A DNA stretch of 48,006 nt from an uncultured Bacilli bacterium (GTDB lineage: Bacteria; Bacillota_I; Bacilli_A; RF39; UBA660), in assembly GCA_944363605.1 (NCBI GenBank), contig CALVUM010000005.1:1-48006 (forward strand), in the 5' to 3' direction. The notes beneath the pieces are model-generated. The model ran no database searches, had not been told where the DNA came from, and worked only from the letters and a program-made list of their open reading frames with translations. The translations under genes were made by a program, and so were the position numbers. Below are positions 1-37,838 of this stretch, one piece after another. Each line of letters begins with the position of its first letter. Positions within the stretch are counted from its first letter, which is position 1.

Positions 1-131
1 GCAAAATAAAATAATAAAAAAAGAAAAATATTCGTCAAATTAATTTGTAGAATAAGAAAAGTGTATGATAAAATAAAACGCAAATTTCATGCACTTTTTT
101 GTATGTAGAAAGTAGATGAAGGCAAAAGAAA

Positions 132-151
132 GAAGAAGCGGTAACTTCTTC
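132..151 (+). repeat. Hairpin ahead of the transposon genes
   Basis: GAAGAAG (132-138), a 6-nt loop and CTTCTTC (145-151) form a perfect 7-bp stem 40 bp before the first transposon gene. Such hairpins in transposon leaders often limit read-in transcription or translation. That role is inferred; there is no T-tract for termination. Confidence 0.4.
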
Positions 152-190
152 CTTCGATAGTTTTAAATGCCCTTCATCAAGGCAATTACT

Positions 191-718
191 ATGATAGTTT
201 TAAATCCTTCAAATGTCAAGTTTAAATTTCAAGAAAAATTAGATATCTATAAAGATATGAATAACTTTGGTTGTTTAGAATGTCCATGTTGTCACTCAAA
301 AGAATATATTTTATGGGGACATTATGAACGTGGAGTTACTTATTTAAAAAATAACCAAATATATTCTGAGATCGTAAAAATTCAAAGAATTCGATGTCAA
401 AGCTGTGGAAGAACACATGCCATCTTACCCTTCGGCATCGTTCCTTATAAGCAACTGACAGATGAAATTCTTCTTCTTATTTTACTAGATGAAGAAAATG
501 CCAATCTTTTTACAGAAGAAACAAAAGAGACTTATAAAAAACAATTTACGAAAGATCATCTTCCCTATTTCATAACCATGTTGCAAATAAGAAATTTTAA
601 AAAAATGCTCCTTCTATTAAAAGAACAAAAAGAACAACTTCTATCTCAATATATTAAGAGGTATGAGAAATGTTTTATGCAAATTAAATTAGGATACTTA
701 GGATATTGCACCTTTTAA
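191..718 (+). CDS. DUF6431-type zinc-ribbon protein of the transposon
   Basis: A small protein of about 175 residues with two CxxC pairs near the N-terminus (CLECPCC and, about 40 residues later, CQSCGRTH), which together look like a zinc ribbon. The C-terminal half is charged and helical. Proteins of this type accompany integrase-type transposases in Bacillota, and the name DUF6431 is from memory of that family. A DNA-binding or target-recognition role is inferred. ATG 191 is preferred over ATG 167 because AAGG at 179-182 is correctly spaced and the resulting start (MIVLNPSN) looks family-like. The stop codon lies inside the palindrome at 708-725. Confidence 0.65.
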   Translation: MIVLNPSNVKFKFQEKLDIYKDMNNFGCLECPCCHSKEYILWGHYERGVTYLKNNQIYSEIVKIQRIRCQSCGRTHAILPFGIVPYKQLTDEILLLILLDEENANLFTEETKETYKKQFTKDHLPYFITMLQIRNFKKMLLLLKEQKEQLLSQYIKRYEKCFMQIKLGYLGYCTF

Positions 719-725
719 AAGGTGC
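708..725. repeat. Perfect 18-bp palindrome GCACCTTTTAAAAGGTGC
   Basis: A perfect palindrome covers the stop codon of the DUF6431-type gene, 66 bp before the transposase start. It could be a hairpin separating the two messages or a binding site for a transposon protein. No T-tract follows, so a terminator is unlikely. Confidence 0.5.
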
Positions 726-791
726 ACCAACATAAGGTATCCCTATTTCCTATTTTTCTTTCTGATAGACTAAAAGTCGGAGAGGAGGATT

Positions 792-2084
792 ATGGAAAAA
801 AAACAAGAGAAAGGGATTTTTCGGTTTAGTATTATAGCTCCACTTGTCAATCAAACACATGGATTTGATACAACAGAAGGCTATCTGGACTTTGTCTCGT
901 CTAAAACGTATTCCTTTGAAGGTGTAGAAAGAAAATATAGCAAGAGTTGCATCCGTTCTTGGTATACAAACTATAAAAAATATGGAATCGAAGGATTAGA
1001 AGGAAAAATAAGAAGTGATTGTAAAAGTTCTAGAAAGTTATCTTTAGAAGCTATAGAAAGAATTGAAGAATTAAGAAAACAATATCCTAAAATTACAGGA
1101 ACGGCTATTTACAAAAAACTTATAGAAGAAAGTTTTCTTTTAAAGCAAGATGTTTCTTTATCTACCATCCATCGTTATTTGAAAAAAAATCATTTAAAAG
1201 CTCAAGAAGGTTGTACAGTAGAAAGAAGAATGTTTGAAATGGAACATGTCAATGACTGTTGGCAAGCAGATACTTCCTATGGGCCTTATTTACGAATAGA
1301 CAACAAGAAATATCGTACGTATATTCTTATGTTTATTGATGATAAGTCTCGAATGATTATGGGATTTGATGTATTTCTTTCTGATACAGCCATTAATATG
1401 CAAAGTGTTTTCAAAAATGGCGTTAAAACTTATGGAAAACCCAAAAGGCTTTTTGTAGATAATGGTGGACCATATGAGAATAAACAGTTATCCTACATCT
1501 GTGCTACTTTAGGAATAGAACTTATTCATGCCAAACCTTACACACCAGAAGCAAAGGCTAAACAAGAAAGACTTTTTCGAACCATTAAGGATGGGTGGAT
1601 GAATTGTACAAATTGGAATGAATTTACCTCTTTAGAAGATGTGAAAAAAAGTTTATCAAACTTTTTACAGAAAGAATATATAAATAAAAAGCATTCTGTA
1701 ACGAAAGAAACGCCTAATGAAAGATGGCATCAAGAATTTAAGAAGGTTACCTTTTTATCTGAAACATTTATTGAAGAATCTTTTTTACATCGAGAACATC
1801 ATAAAGTAAGAAATGATCGGACCATTAAATTTAAAAATGAATTTTATGAAGTTCCATTTAAATATGTAGGACAAACCATAGAAACTAGATATGATCCGAT
1901 GAATTTGGAAATTCTATATTTATATGAAGGAAACCAAAAGATTTGTGAAATCAAAAAAGTAGATAAAGTGGCCAATAGTAAAAGCAAAAGAAAAGATCGA
2001 ATTGATTATTCACTTGTAGTAAACGATGAAAAGGATGTACTAGAAATGGAGGAAGAAAAATGTATCAAACTTACTATGCAATGA
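792..2084 (+). CDS. Integrase-fold (rve) D,D-35-E transposase
   Basis: A 430-residue transposase that would cut and join the element ends. An N-terminal helix-turn-helix region (about 45-140, including a segment around IRSWYTNYKKYG) precedes a retroviral-integrase-type core. The acidic triad is visible: D160 in WQADTS, D223 in FVDNGGPYEN and E259 in AKAKQERLFRTI, giving exactly 35 residues between the last two. A beta-rich C-terminal domain follows (about 330-400). GGAGG precedes ATG 792. The last 25 nt overlap the ATPase gene. The layout resembles IS481/TniA-like transposases, and no disruption is seen, so it may be active. Confidence 0.85.
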   Translation: MEKKQEKGIFRFSIIAPLVNQTHGFDTTEGYLDFVSSKTYSFEGVERKYSKSCIRSWYTNYKKYGIEGLEGKIRSDCKSSRKLSLEAIERIEELRKQYPKITGTAIYKKLIEESFLLKQDVSLSTIHRYLKKNHLKAQEGCTVERRMFEMEHVNDCWQADTSYGPYLRIDNKKYRTYILMFIDDKSRMIMGFDVFLSDTAINMQSVFKNGVKTYGKPKRLFVDNGGPYENKQLSYICATLGIELIHAKPYTPEAKAKQERLFRTIKDGWMNCTNWNEFTSLEDVKKSLSNFLQKEYINKKHSVTKETPNERWHQEFKKVTFLSETFIEESFLHREHHKVRNDRTIKFKNEFYEVPFKYVGQTIETRYDPMNLEILYLYEGNQKICEIKKVDKVANSKSKRKDRIDYSLVVNDEKDVLEMEEEKCIKLTMQ

Positions 2085-2869
2085 GTTGTAATCCATTTTC
2101 TAAAGAAATGGATACACATCATCCATATGAAAGTAGAGATTTTAAAGAACTGATCTATCGATTTACCTATTTAACAGAAATTAAAGGAATTGGAGTGTTT
2201 ACAGGAAGCCCAGGATTAGGAAAAACCTTTGCTTTAAGAAGTTTCTCAGAAAAATTAAATCCAGACCTATATAAAATTATTTATATATCTGCAGTAAAGA
2301 ACATGACTTCTTTTGATTTTTTTAAGGAAATCGGAGATGCCTTTCGTATTGATACAGGATCTTGTTATAAAACGGATTTATATCATACAATTCAAAAAGA
2401 AATTCGACTTTTAGTAGAACAAGAAAAAAGAATGCCAATCCTTATTATTGATGATGCTCATAATTTATCAAGGGAAATTTTCTTAAATTTAAAAGTATTA
2501 TATGAATTTGATATGGATAGTAAAGATTATATTACGTTATTCTTAGTTGGGAAACCTGAATTAAAAACAGAACTATCCAAAAATGTTTATGACTATTTAA
2601 AACAAAGAGTATTGGTAAATTATACATTAGAAGGATTAACAAGAGAAGAAGTAAAAGAATATATTGAAACGAGATTACAATTAGCCAATGCCCATCACGA
2701 ATTATTTAGTGAAGATGCTTTAAACGCTTTGTATTCTTGTAGTAAATCTTCTCTAAGAAAGTTAAACACGTTGCTTGTAAATTGTTTGTTATTAGGGTAT
2801 CAAAATCAAAAACAAAGGATAGATTCAGAAATCGTCATGATTGCGAAGGGAGAAATGGATTTTGAATGA
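2060..2869 (+). CDS. AAA ATPase of the transposon (ExeA/TniB-like)
   Basis: A 269-residue ATPase with Walker A GSPGLGKT (residues 52-59) and Walker B ILIIDDAH near residue 130, followed by a sensor-like LFLVGKPEL segment. The start MYQTYYAMSCNPFSKE resembles the FxxNPF openings of ExeA/TniB-type ATPases. In related elements the ATPase loads on target DNA and recruits the transposase. The gene overlaps the transposase by 25 nt with its own GGAGG, suggesting coupled translation. It is full length with no frameshift. Confidence 0.8.
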   Translation: MYQTYYAMSCNPFSKEMDTHHPYESRDFKELIYRFTYLTEIKGIGVFTGSPGLGKTFALRSFSEKLNPDLYKIIYISAVKNMTSFDFFKEIGDAFRIDTGSCYKTDLYHTIQKEIRLLVEQEKRMPILIIDDAHNLSREIFLNLKVLYEFDMDSKDYITLFLVGKPELKTELSKNVYDYLKQRVLVNYTLEGLTREEVKEYIETRLQLANAHHELFSEDALNALYSCSKSSLRKLNTLLVNCLLLGYQNQKQRIDSEIVMIAKGEMDFE

Positions 2870-3102
2870 AATGTTATCATGAAAAAATAATAGATGAAAT
2901 CTTAGAAATACTAAAAAATAATTTAATACTTATATATAATTTTCACGATCATACTTTACCAAATATTCGGGAATATTGTTTGGATCATGTTCATACAAGA
3001 TACAAACATTTAGATTATGGAACTTTAATATATTTTACAGAAGAAGCTTTGACTGAACTCATTAATACGGATTACTTATATGATTTTAGGGATATAGAAT
3101 GA
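2866..3102 (+). CDS. Small 78-residue transposon-linked protein, unknown
   Basis: The ATG overlaps the ATPase stop (ATGA), so translation is probably coupled. The product is acidic and aromatic-rich (repeated Tyr/His, as in HTRYKHLDYGTL) with no motif I recognise and no membrane segment. Its position in the operon suggests it belongs to the transposon rather than to the host. It ends 28 bp before the 46-bp repeat that marks the right side of the element. Confidence 0.55.
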   Translation: MKCYHEKIIDEILEILKNNLILIYNFHDHTLPNIREYCLDHVHTRYKHLDYGTLIYFTEEALTELINTDYLYDFRDIE

Positions 3103-3129
3103 TCATCTATATCCCTTTTCTTTTTTTCT

Positions 3130-3175
3130 CTAAATTAATGTGCTGATTTCACTTCAAAATAAAATGCAGATCTAT
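3130..3175 (+). repeat. 46-bp long-range inverted repeat, copy A
   Basis: This stretch begins CTAAATTAATGTGC and ends GCAGATCTAT. It recurs reverse-complemented at 37746-37791 with 42 of 46 bases identical. Two related motifs, GCTGATTTCA and GCAGATCTAT, sit about 24 bp apart inside it, as expected for tandem transposase-binding sites. It lies directly behind the last transposon gene and is most likely part of the right end. Confidence 0.75.
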
Positions 3176-3189
3176 ACAAATATTTCTGA

Positions 3190-4185
3190 ATGTCAAAAAA
3201 TTATTGGGGGGGGGGGGCATTTTCGTTTAGCTATTTAACTAGTTTACTTGAATTTAGCTTGTTAACAGAAGAAGATAAAATTGATGTTTTAAGTAAAGTT
3301 GTTTATGAAAGTAGCCCGAAAGCTTTGAAAAAAGATACTAAAGATTTTTCTTTACCTAGTGTTCCAGAATCCTTTTCTGTAGAAGAATTATTAAATGAAT
3401 ATCAGTTACTATTAACTAAAGGAAATTTTCTTGCGCAGAAATATTATTTCTTGTTAGAAGGAAAAAATGAAAGTCAAATAAATTATATGAAAACGGTTGT
3501 ATCTTGTTTAAAAGAAGAGAAAGATTTAAAAAATTCTTTTCAATATAAAGATGAAAATATGGCTGTTTTGCTTTTAGAATTTTTTGATATAAAAGAATTA
3601 CTTAGTGACTTTGTCTCTAAAATTGAAGATCCTAAAAATGTTTCGGAAGAAACACGAGATATGGTTACGTTATATATAGATTCATTAAAAGAATGTATTC
3701 AAAATATTTTACAGTTAGAACCGGCATTTGAAAAATCTCAAAAATCTTCTCAGCCTGTAGATACTCTTTTATTTTTGCTTGATGAAAATAATCAGCCTTT
3801 ATTTCAGCTTAATAAATTTTCTTTAGAAGAGAGAAACCGAATTGCTAATTTAATTCGGGGACTTCTTTCAGGAAAAAAAGATTTTGAAAGAGGGATAAAA
3901 CATTCGAAATTATTGACAAGACAAGATTTAGATATTGATGTGTTTTTAAATAAAAATGGGGATATGGTCGTTTCTTATATACTGCTTTCAGATAATTCTT
4001 TTTTACTTTTAACTTTTGATCGAAAGAAAAATATTTATGATGTATCTGAATCTATAGTAAGAAAGTATAAATCAAAAATTTCATCTTTAAATTCTTCTAA
4101 TCTTGGTATGCTTTTAGATACACAAAAAGAGTTTAAAGAAAATTTATATAAGGATTTAGGAATTGAAAGGGAGCTAAAATTATGA
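3190..4185 (+). CDS. Unrecognised 331-residue protein with a poly-G tract at its start
   Basis: I do not recognise this protein. It is acidic, rich in Leu/Lys/Ser and mostly helical, with no signal peptide or membrane segment. The frame opens at ATG 3190, just after an in-frame TGA, and reads through twelve G (3206-3217) as Trp-Gly-Gly-Gly-Ala. No Shine-Dalgarno sequence precedes the ATG and the transposon end lies 15 bp upstream. The true N-terminus may therefore have been replaced by the insertion, or the tract may switch the gene on and off. Its stop overlaps the next start (ATGA). It heads a four-gene overlapping cluster. Confidence 0.6.
   Translation: MSKNYWGGGAFSFSYLTSLLEFSLLTEEDKIDVLSKVVYESSPKALKKDTKDFSLPSVPESFSVEELLNEYQLLLTKGNFLAQKYYFLLEGKNESQINYMKTVVSCLKEEKDLKNSFQYKDENMAVLLLEFFDIKELLSDFVSKIEDPKNVSEETRDMVTLYIDSLKECIQNILQLEPAFEKSQKSSQPVDTLLFLLDENNQPLFQLNKFSLEERNRIANLIRGLLSGKKDFERGIKHSKLLTRQDLDIDVFLNKNGDMVVSYILLSDNSFLLLTFDRKKNIYDVSESIVRKYKSKISSLNSSNLGMLLDTQKEFKENLYKDLGIERELKL
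3206..3217 (+). repeat. Poly-G tract of 12
   Basis: Twelve consecutive G in an AT-rich genome, inside the first ten codons of the gene at 3190. With 12 G the frame is open for 331 residues. With 13 it stops at TAG four codons later, and with 11 it also stops within a few codons. Tracts like this change length by slippage and are classic phase-variation switches. Confidence 0.9.
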
Positions 4186-4385
4186 GTAAAGAGAAACATA
4201 CTTTTTTTCAAAATATCCGTAAAGAGTGTTTTGACTTGATTTCTTTAAAAAAAGTTGATGTACAAGAACTTTCCTTTTTGCTTGGAATTAAGGAAGAAGA
4301 GTTTTATCAAAATTTTTCTTCTTGTATAAATGATCTTACATTTTATTTGAAAACATATAATTTGTTAGTTGAATGGAGTGAGTAG
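4182..4385 (+). CDS. Small 67-residue protein, possible helix-turn-helix, unknown
   Basis: The start overlaps the previous stop by 4 nt (ATGA) and GGGAG lies 7-11 nt upstream, so it is part of a coupled operon. The middle (KKVDVQELSFLLGIKEEEFY) has the pattern of a helix-turn-helix, but the protein is too short to be sure. No membrane segment is seen. The function is unknown; it probably works with its two large neighbours. Confidence 0.6.
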   Translation: MSKEKHTFFQNIRKECFDLISLKKVDVQELSFLLGIKEEEFYQNFSSCINDLTFYLKTYNLLVEWSE

Positions 4386-4386
4386 A

Positions 4387-6258
4387 GTGGAAGAGGTTAT
4401 TAGAATCCATTTAGAGAGTCTTTATAAAGAGTCTGATACTTTTACTTTAGAAGAAGATTTGGAAAGAATTAAAGAAAAACATAAAGAGTTAGATATTTTA
4501 AAAGAGTTTATAGATGATTTAGAAAAAAGTTTGGAAAATATTGCTTATTTAAAAATAGAATCTATTTTACCTAGTATGTTTTCATCTTTAGAAATAATGC
4601 ATATTAAAGAAACTGTTCGATTAATTCGTCTTGTTTTGCAAGCAAAGAATGAAAAAAAGTTTCCTGTAGAGCTATCTAATGAACAAAAAGAATTTTTAGA
4701 AAATTTGCTGTTAAAAATTAAAGAGCAAAAAAATTCTATGGAACAACAGCTTATTACTTTTGAAAATAAATTGAAAATGGATTGTGAACAGAAAGATGTA
4801 CTAGCGGATAAAATTATTGATTTATCTATTTTATTAGAAAAGATTTTGGATCCAAATGATTTAGATTTTTTAAATCAAGATGATTTTCTTGTTTTCTATG
4901 AATGTGTTTTAGATGAAGAAATTCCTTATGAGAAAAGAAAGGCCGCACTTGTTGCTTGGAAAAATTATAATGATAAGCATAATCTTTCTGATAAAAAAAT
5001 TATCGAAAAAGTTGATATGGCAAGTGTTCGTGAATGTTTTTCGGAATATGGTCTTTTAGATGTAATGGATAAGTATTTAAATAAATATGAATCAGAAATT
5101 GTATATCGGGCGGATATTGCCAATATACGAAGTATTTTAAAATATTTAAAAGAAGAAGATCCTGTGCATAATAAACCAAATTTATTACCACGTTTTGAGC
5201 CAATGGATTTGTTAACAATTTGTATTTATGGTACTTTGTCTTCTGTTCAAGCTCGTTTTGAAAAAATGTTGGAAAAAAATGAATTTTTTGATATTTATTT
5301 TGAAACACCTAGTATTTGGATAAGAAATCTTTTTCGAAAAAAGAAAGGTAAAACTGTTTTTTCCAATTCTTCTCGAACCTCTGGTAATGCTGGTAGTACT
5401 TTAGGGAAGGTAGCACATCTTATTAGTTTAGATGAAATGGAAGAAAACGAAAGATTTTTGCAAGGATTAGGGTTTGATGTTTCGATTCGTTCTTCTAAAA
5501 ATGTTGCGGCTATTAAAACTCCAAATTATAAATTAAAAGAAAATTTAAGAATTTTAGAACAATATAAAATATTTGATCCTCAAGATATTTCTCATTTTCC
5601 AGTCTCGACTTTAACATTTAGTGATTTGGCTTTGAAATGTGATAATTTAATAGAAGTTGGACTATTAAATTCATTAGATGGTAACATTAATTATATAAAT
5701 AATTATCCAAGCCGACTTCAAATGAATTCTTCTTTTTTAGCATTGCTTTATAAATTAAAAAATGAAATGGGTAGAGATGAATATTATCAGACGATTTTTT
5801 CAGAGAAACGTTTAAACACCCTTAATTCTGATTTTTATAGAACTGGTTTTAAAAAATATGCTGGAAAAGCTGATTTACAAGATTTTGTGACTACAAATTT
5901 TGTTGATTTTTCTTGTGAGTCAGAGATGCTCCATTATGATTTATTTAAGGAGTTAGTTACTAAAAATTTTGAATTAGAAATTGACTCATCTATATTTCAA
6001 GATGACCTTATTCAAAAACTTGAGAATTTTCATCGTGTAAATGGAGATGATTATCATTATGTTTTTGGTAGCGTTTCAATTTCAAGATTAAAAGTATTAC
6101 GAATATATTCTATTTTGAAAGGAAAAAATGTTTCTTTTTTACAAGAAGCTTTGTTGTTTGCTATTACGTATAATTCATTTTTAAATAAAGAAAGTTATCA
6201 ACTTATTCTGGATCAACTTGGATTTAAAAAGGGAGGTTTAACGAATGGATTATCTTAA
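4387..6258 (+). CDS. Unrecognised 623-residue helical protein
   Basis: A large intracellular-looking protein with no family I can name. Residues about 1-160 are rich in Glu/Lys/Leu heptads and probably coiled coil; the rest is mixed helical. No ATPase, nuclease or protease motif is visible. GTG 4387 is chosen because GGAG at 4375-4378 is 8 nt away; an in-frame TTG at 4369 would lie before that site. It follows the stop of the 67-residue gene by one base and overlaps the next gene by 14 nt, so all four genes look like one translational unit. It could be lineage-specific or structural. Confidence 0.65.
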   Translation: MEEVIRIHLESLYKESDTFTLEEDLERIKEKHKELDILKEFIDDLEKSLENIAYLKIESILPSMFSSLEIMHIKETVRLIRLVLQAKNEKKFPVELSNEQKEFLENLLLKIKEQKNSMEQQLITFENKLKMDCEQKDVLADKIIDLSILLEKILDPNDLDFLNQDDFLVFYECVLDEEIPYEKRKAALVAWKNYNDKHNLSDKKIIEKVDMASVRECFSEYGLLDVMDKYLNKYESEIVYRADIANIRSILKYLKEEDPVHNKPNLLPRFEPMDLLTICIYGTLSSVQARFEKMLEKNEFFDIYFETPSIWIRNLFRKKKGKTVFSNSSRTSGNAGSTLGKVAHLISLDEMEENERFLQGLGFDVSIRSSKNVAAIKTPNYKLKENLRILEQYKIFDPQDISHFPVSTLTFSDLALKCDNLIEVGLLNSLDGNINYINNYPSRLQMNSSFLALLYKLKNEMGRDEYYQTIFSEKRLNTLNSDFYRTGFKKYAGKADLQDFVTTNFVDFSCESEMLHYDLFKELVTKNFELEIDSSIFQDDLIQKLENFHRVNGDDYHYVFGSVSISRLKVLRIYSILKGKNVSFLQEALLFAITYNSFLNKESYQLILDQLGFKKGGLTNGLS

Positions 6259-6526
6259 GGAATTTATATCAGATGAAGAATATAATCAGTTTCTTTTAGG
6301 AATTGATGAAGAAAAAGAAGTTTTGTTTTTAACTCATGAGAGTGAAGTCCGAAAAATGCTTCAATATTTTCAAACTTTGGATTTTAATTTAATGGATATT
6401 TTGTTATATAAATCAACTCTTCTTTTTGATAATGTTGAATTTGTCAAACAAAAAATTCAAGAAAATAGCGATCTTTTACCAAGCATTCGAGAAGATGTAT
6501 GTACTTTTGATTTGATTGGGTTATAA
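6245..6526 (+). CDS. Unknown 93-residue acidic protein
   Basis: This is the last gene of the overlapping cluster. ATG 6245 is preceded by a good GGGAGG inside the end of the previous gene. The product is acidic and Leu/Phe-rich, with no motif or membrane helix recognised. The sequence then leaves a 136-bp gap before rpsF, so the cluster probably ends here, although no clear terminator hairpin is visible. Confidence 0.6.
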   Translation: MDYLKEFISDEEYNQFLLGIDEEKEVLFLTHESEVRKMLQYFQTLDFNLMDILLYKSTLLFDNVEFVKQKIQENSDLLPSIREDVCTFDLIGL

Positions 6527-37736: not shown

Positions 37737-37745
37737 ATCTTTTTT

Positions 37746-37791
37746 ATAGATCTGTACTTTATTTTGAAATGAAATCTGCACATTAATTTAG
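37746..37791 (-). repeat. 46-bp long-range inverted repeat, copy B
   Basis: The reverse complement of this stretch matches 3130-3175 at 42 of 46 bases. It starts 9 bp after the gpmI stop, with no transposase gene nearby. It looks like a solo right end or a miniature derivative of the first transposon. Confidence 0.75.
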
Positions 37792-37805
37792 AAAAAATAT
37801 GTCGT

Positions 37806-37838
37806 GTCAAATAATTGTTAATTGACATAGGGGGGGGG
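37806..37838 (+). repeat. Imperfect TGTCAA palindrome followed by poly-G of 9
   Basis: TGTCAAATAA and TTAATTGACA form an almost perfect inverted repeat, followed by TA and nine G (37830-37838). TGTCAA is a common transposon-end sequence, so this may be a relic junction. There is no gene in this stretch. Confidence 0.55.

Follow-up and report, generated by a model that had tools for sequence, protein, structure and literature searches.

Transposons that seek particular targets are known to read a gene (glmS), a recombination site (dif, res) or a guide RNA, and insertion of phage Mu is nearly random. The retrotransposons Ty3 and Ty1 insert a short set distance upstream of tRNA genes, which tolerate insertion. 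Poly-G tracts are known as contingency loci in Campylobacter, Neisseria, Helicobacter and Bifidobacterium. The IS1202 family (ISAjo2 group) comprises dif-site hunters, single-protein insertion sequences of ~1.5 kb with 5-bp target duplications, which are placed in a single orientation 5 bp away from the XerC site (PMC10132070). For IS21, no dedicated target selector has been reported (PMC10293859). Our literature search found no paper linking transposon targets to poly-G or contingency tracts, and poly-G targeting by a transposon seems to be previously undescribed.

The window analyzed here, 48,006 nucleotides long, is an entire contig (C5) of the 1.52-Mb draft genome (69.5% complete) of an uncultured Bacilli bacterium. 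It begins with a transposon copy (1-3176, forward strand) whose right end lies 29 bp before a run of 12 G (3206-3217, forward strand); that the tract neighbors a transposon end had been noted in the original prediction. We consider it likely that this run is a slippage-prone tract in a host gene, and that the lineage of the adjoining transposon inserts selectively about 25-45 bp 5' of G-runs, with either end facing the run and with a 6-bp duplication.

Organization of the transposon

The transposon carries four genes, encoding a DUF6431 zinc protein, a DDE transposase, a TnsC/MuB-like ATPase and a 78-residue acidic protein, all on the forward strand of the window. The first 9 bp of the left end (TATAGATAA) are missing from this copy, as the contig starts there, and the left end was read from contig C26; the right terminus, ..GCAGATCTATA, lies at 3176. 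The ends of this lineage read 5'-TATAGAT..ATCTATA-3' and those of a second lineage TGTAGAT..ATCTACA, and the target duplications measure 6 bp (CAAATA, TCTTTA, TTTTAA, TCTTTT).

The first gene (191-718) encodes a DUF6431 zinc-ribbon protein (Pfam PF20020, E 1.4e-11), a candidate target selector, in which CxxC, CxxC and H are invariant across 10 relatives; its predicted structure was a poor model with no PDB match, and we make no claim about its fold. DUF6431 reportedly appears in a paper on Ruminococcus gnavus strains. The transposase (792-2084) contains an rve and a Mu-transposase C-terminal domain (Mu-transpos_C) and is TnsB-like, its best PDB sequence matches being TnsB chains (E 1.2e-7). 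The third gene (2060-2869) encodes an AAA+ ATPase with a predicted TnsC/MuB fold (AlphaFold model, pLDDT 88), the best structural matches of the model being TnsC (Z 20.5, 3.6 A, 245 residues) and MuB (Z 20.3). The small acidic protein (2866-3102) has relatives in the same position: proteins ending in YD.R..E follow the ATPase gene in G115, G061, G351 and G183, and an unnamed 86-residue ORF occupies this place in a Metabacillus plasmid. A terminator-like hairpin followed by a T-run closes the operon (3088-3125, forward strand; self-complementary at 3088-3116). The gene order DUF6431-transposase-ATPase is common to relatives across the family and to Geobacillus and Metabacillus plasmids.

Distant copies share a hairpin-containing leader before the DUF6431 start codon (window 120-190; L100 4270-4360; L109), and an Rfam scan of five element-bearing loci returned nothing at gathering score. 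At another locus (L114 in G115:C49, ~1646-1687), the tips of two transposon ends face each other across 6 bp, which looks as if one copy had inserted at the end of another.

A poly-G frame switch in a split host gene

The G12 run lies in an AT-rich window (29% GC) and is far beyond chance: the window holds 7 overlapping G8 matches, from this tract and a G9 run at 37830, versus 0.12 expected in shuffles. A frame starting at ATG 3190 encodes 331 residues at 12 G, 15 at 11 G and 13 at 13 G, being open at 6, 9, 12 and 15 G, and it heads four overlapping ORFs (3190-4185, 4182-4382, 4369-6258, 6245-6526). As arithmetic from this ATG, the original prediction of a 331-residue frame that needs 12 G and is closed by one base more or less is confirmed, as is the overlapping cluster.

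The gene itself begins elsewhere. It is cut by the transposon, and its 5' part lies on contig C26 behind the same 6-bp duplication, CAAATA, that follows the right end in the window (3177-3182); the final ORF of that contig (L089 6444-6821) supplies the N-terminal ~120 residues of the split protein. In the 3' part (3183-4185, forward strand), the native frame crosses the tract and stays open beyond it only at 7, 10 or 13 G. When joined across the duplication, the C26 and C5 parts align lengthwise with three uninterrupted orthologues of the genus (G010, G014, G005). The joined frame runs to completion at 7, 10 or 13 G; at 12 G it ends 6 codons past the tract, and at 10 G the joined gene has the exact orthologue length around the tract (IGGGAFSFSYLTSLL vs LEGNEYSFPYLTSLL). 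ATG 3190 has no evident ribosome-binding site by eye and lies outside the native frame; the native start is on C26, and this ATG is a by-product of the cut. The gene in the window is therefore split by a transposon insertion and off-frame at 12 G, and, as read from its frames, the tract is an internal frame switch, now off, in a physically split gene. No G-tract occurs at the corresponding place in the three orthologues, which argues that the tract arose in this species or close by and that the switch is not conserved.

These results revise the interpretation of the tract as a simple poly-G switch in the first codons of a 331-residue gene that toggles a four-gene cluster. Although the frame arithmetic fits and poly-G switching is widespread in this genome, we now regard that model as very unlikely: the orthologues lack the tract, its supposed place in the first ten codons is contradicted by a native start ~120 codons upstream on C26, and 12 G, taken to keep the gene on, is an off length, with 7, 10 or 13 G being on. 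With the gene split by the transposon, slippage in this genome can neither bring it back nor, through it, turn the cluster on and off, contrary to the original proposal. What stands of the phase-switch reading is that the tract lies within a gene and determines the frame by its length, that it neighbors a transposon end, and that the genome has clear cases of genes turned on and off by poly-G.

The rest of the cluster (4182-6526, forward strand) encodes proteins of 66, 629 and 93 residues, and the cluster proteins scanned gave no credible Pfam or PADLOC match; its first and third genes are conserved in G010, G014 and G005. The conserved cluster as a whole (3183-6526; about 453, 66, 629 and 93 residues) lies upstream of rpsF-ssb-rpsR-like genes, and its first gene was found in few genomes of the genus.

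Poly-G tracts in the host genome and its relatives

The host genome contains ~20 distinct tracts of at least 9 G, compared with ~0.08 expected from base composition, which fall into two main groups. The first consists of paralogous genes for membrane proteins (MKKNRIILGILLTSLIVL[G]YLNKT), a family whose frames are kept open by 9 G and closed by 10 or 11: the longest frames seen at 9 G reach at least 679 and at least 548 residues, whereas members with 10 or 11 G stop after 22-24 codons. The second is an intergenic repeat, TTGACAT[G9-11]TAT.ATGATAARAT, in which a -35 box is followed by the tract, the layout of a promoter-spacer switch. The second G-tract of the window (37830-37838, forward strand) lies in an intergenic repeat, TTGACATA[G9]TATCATGATAAGAT. 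Beside this second poly-G promoter, sequence comparison revealed a 57-bp relic of the right end of the same transposon (37741-37797, reverse strand); the relic points away from the G9 tract, and a near-identical arrangement (37741-37838 in the window) is present on contig C84.

In both the split gene and the paralogue family, tract length sets the on or off state of the gene by frame arithmetic. The copies compared are paralogous tracts of 9-12 G, with one genome per species, and their comparison supports real phase variation. Tract lengths come from draft assemblies and may be off by a base or more; that the tracts themselves are assembly or sequencing artefacts, such as two-colour poly-G calls in draft metagenomes, is extremely improbable, given that each has unique flanking sequence on either side, that they reappear in homologous promoters and in paralogous genes, and that the frames make sense at 9 G.

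Four other genomes (G503, G193, G424, G418) hold 20-49 tracts of at least 8 G per 1.2-1.3 Mb. In each of the first three, a single promoter design accounts for most tracts, TTGACACC[G8]TATTATATAATTATCTTATA being an example. Nearly all tracts of G424 have exactly 8 G, so a tract may also be a fixed promoter element. Most tracts are promoter spacers of putative surface-protein genes and some lie within coding sequence, which leaves the G-run itself as their shared feature. The analysis thereby brings to light uncultured gut Bacilli that form a group in which each genome has 20-49 poly-G tracts, mostly in promoters of putative surface proteins; relatives are present in rabbit-gut samples.

Transposon ends facing G-tracts at a set distance

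We read every end of the element in its own genome (11 sequenced ends). Five of these face a G9-G12 tract at 28-35 bp, with a chance of ~1e-16 given the number of tracts: four are right ends (C5, 29 bp; C83, 33; C6, 30; C53, 35) and one is a left end (C40, 28 bp). The other six face no G-tract. Two of the six (C26, C59) are the far sides of the C5 and C6 insertions, paired by matching 6-bp duplications (CAAATA and TCTTTA), so that both paired insertions have a tract on one side each; the remaining four have no visible partner. The tracts at the five targeted ends lie in coding sequence in two cases and in promoters in three. At C53, the element lies within one gene of a paralogous family, and the same tract is found in family members without an insertion, from which it follows that the tract preceded the insertion. 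Creation of the G-run by the transposon is ruled out, as uninterrupted paralogues and promoters carry the tract.

In other species, two pattern surveys covered 386 and 385 genomes in overlapping sets and were biased to positives by design. The ends were checked by eye for a repeated terminal motif, and a reversed-pattern control gave few matches. Pattern matches in G057, G267, G256, G264, G106 and G276 were dropped as not being transposon ends, and the status of a match in G098 is uncertain. In total, 24 ends in 14 genomes, each of a different species, have a G-run 23-67 bp away. Every genome is a draft assembly, and many ends fall at contig edges, where only one side is visible. In G418, where the transposase is 64% identical, a complete insertion is flanked on either side by TTTTAA, and its left end is 29 bp away from a G8 tract. 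G503 has a 249-bp non-autonomous copy with a perfect TCTTTT duplication and a tract at 24 bp, and at a second site (L247) it is the opposite end of this element that faces the tract, again at 24 bp.

To counter the choice of positives, a further survey started from the tracts. For 95 distinct tracts of at least 8 G in four genomes, 16 transposon ends were found on the 5' side, all 24-48 bp away, versus none on the 3' side within the 110 bp searched. Five of the 16 are in G424 with duplicated promoter cassettes and are probably copies of these cassettes, not independent events. Spacing depends on lineage, with TATA-type ends at 23-43 bp and ACA-type ends mostly at 45-46 bp. The association, its distance, its one-sidedness and its recurrence in 14 species are thus direct observations and extend to promoter and coding tracts alike.

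These observations bear on two explanations in which the G-run is not the target. Insertion might be widespread near promoters and persist only a short way upstream of the -35 box of surface genes that are dispensable, the poly-G being incidental. Most tracts are indeed promoter spacers with insertions upstream of TTGAC, and insertions within the promoter would be harmful; yet at C5 and C53 the coding tracts have the insertion on the same side, 29 and 35 bp away, though it destroys the gene. Moreover, the spacing of ACA-lineage ends varies less relative to the G-run (45-46) than relative to TTGAC, for which counting gives 37-39, and such survivorship leaves the upper limit of ~48 bp unexplained, so that we consider it unlikely. 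Alternatively, the target might be the intrinsic terminator hairpin that often precedes poly-G promoters, given that several insertions in G424 and G503 lie in the terminator of the upstream gene, within its loop, stem or T-run. This is highly improbable, since no hairpin was seen by eye at the C5/C26, C53, C40 and G418 sites, which keep the G distance.

Selective insertion near G-runs characterizes only part of the wider family, as indicated by at least one full copy (G068:C48) with no run of 6 or more G in the stretch examined and by the Geobacillus and Metabacillus plasmid relatives, which have the same gene order and no run of 7 or more G in the stretch examined. In other genomes, several of the ends linked to poly-G stand alone, with no transposase genes. 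Solo right ends of ~45-65 bp, often with two terminal repeats, occur upstream of poly-G promoters at L126, L169, L170, L174, L123 and other loci, and their persistence could reflect target immunity. Small non-autonomous elements of G503 and G197 (L195 7875-8130, reverse strand; L198) share an interior with hairpins and the string AATAGAGGAATTGGAATAA; this interior is possibly a structured RNA, and it has no Rfam match.

Proposed mechanism of target selection

The difference in spacing between transposon lineages points to the transposon machinery rather than to the host promoter. A transposon protein would recognize the G-run, the best candidate being the DUF6431 zinc protein, with its invariant putative zinc-binding cysteines. 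The TnsC/MuB-like ATPase may then span the ~30 bp between the run and the transposase, in the manner of TnsC in Tn7, possibly as a polar filament between the site-reading protein and the transposase; such a filament would fit the one-sidedness of the insertions. The element would benefit from a safe landing site, since a gene controlled by such a switch is for much of the time already dispensable.

The full proposal, namely that a transposon-encoded selector (DUF6431 with the TnsC-like ATPase) reads a bare G-run of at least ~8 and directs insertion 25-45 bp 5' of it, with phase-variation switches serving as safe landing sites throughout the genome, remains tentative, and we rate it as nearly, though not quite, an even prospect. 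Alternatively, the real signal could come from a host protein or from the unusual shape of G-run DNA. If the selector reading is true, solo ends beside switches may mark occupied sites and block new insertions. With a single short homopolymer as the whole target, the system would be directly testable.

Comparison with known systems

The NCBIfam models place the transposase below the cut-offs of two named families, with 176 bits against 224 for IS481, the name that RefSeq gives to a plasmid relative, and 39 bits against 160 for IS21. IS21 and Mu (IstAB, MuAB) resemble the element in pairing a transposase with an AAA+ ATPase, and MuB is among the nearest folds, but neither is tied to G-runs. The IS1202 family is similar in its TnsB-like transposase of comparable size, in its TGT..ACA ends (as in the ACA lineage here) and in a fixed position beside a special site; the present element falls outside this family, having four genes, 3.2 kb, a 6-bp duplication and a poly-G neighbor. 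Ty3 and Ty1 likewise insert a short set distance upstream of a repeated, tolerant feature, although their machinery and target are unrelated.

The likeness to Tn7 lies in a TnsB-like transposase, an ATPase of predicted TnsC fold, an extra zinc protein, and insertion at a set distance on one side of a recognized site. Unlike in Tn7, TnsA was not found among the element's genes and no TniQ match was obtained among its proteins, the DUF6431 protein taking the position of the TniQ/TnsD selector; the duplication is 6 bp instead of 5 bp, the target is a homopolymeric G-run with dozens of copies per genome, and either end of the element may face it. As in the contingency loci of other bacteria, G-runs in coding sequence and promoter spacers set on and off states. 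Here, however, they occur in uncultured gut Bacilli and appear to be exploited as transposon targets: a G-run-seeking lineage would use the bet-hedging switches of a bacterium as its landing sites, linking two fields that are normally separate.
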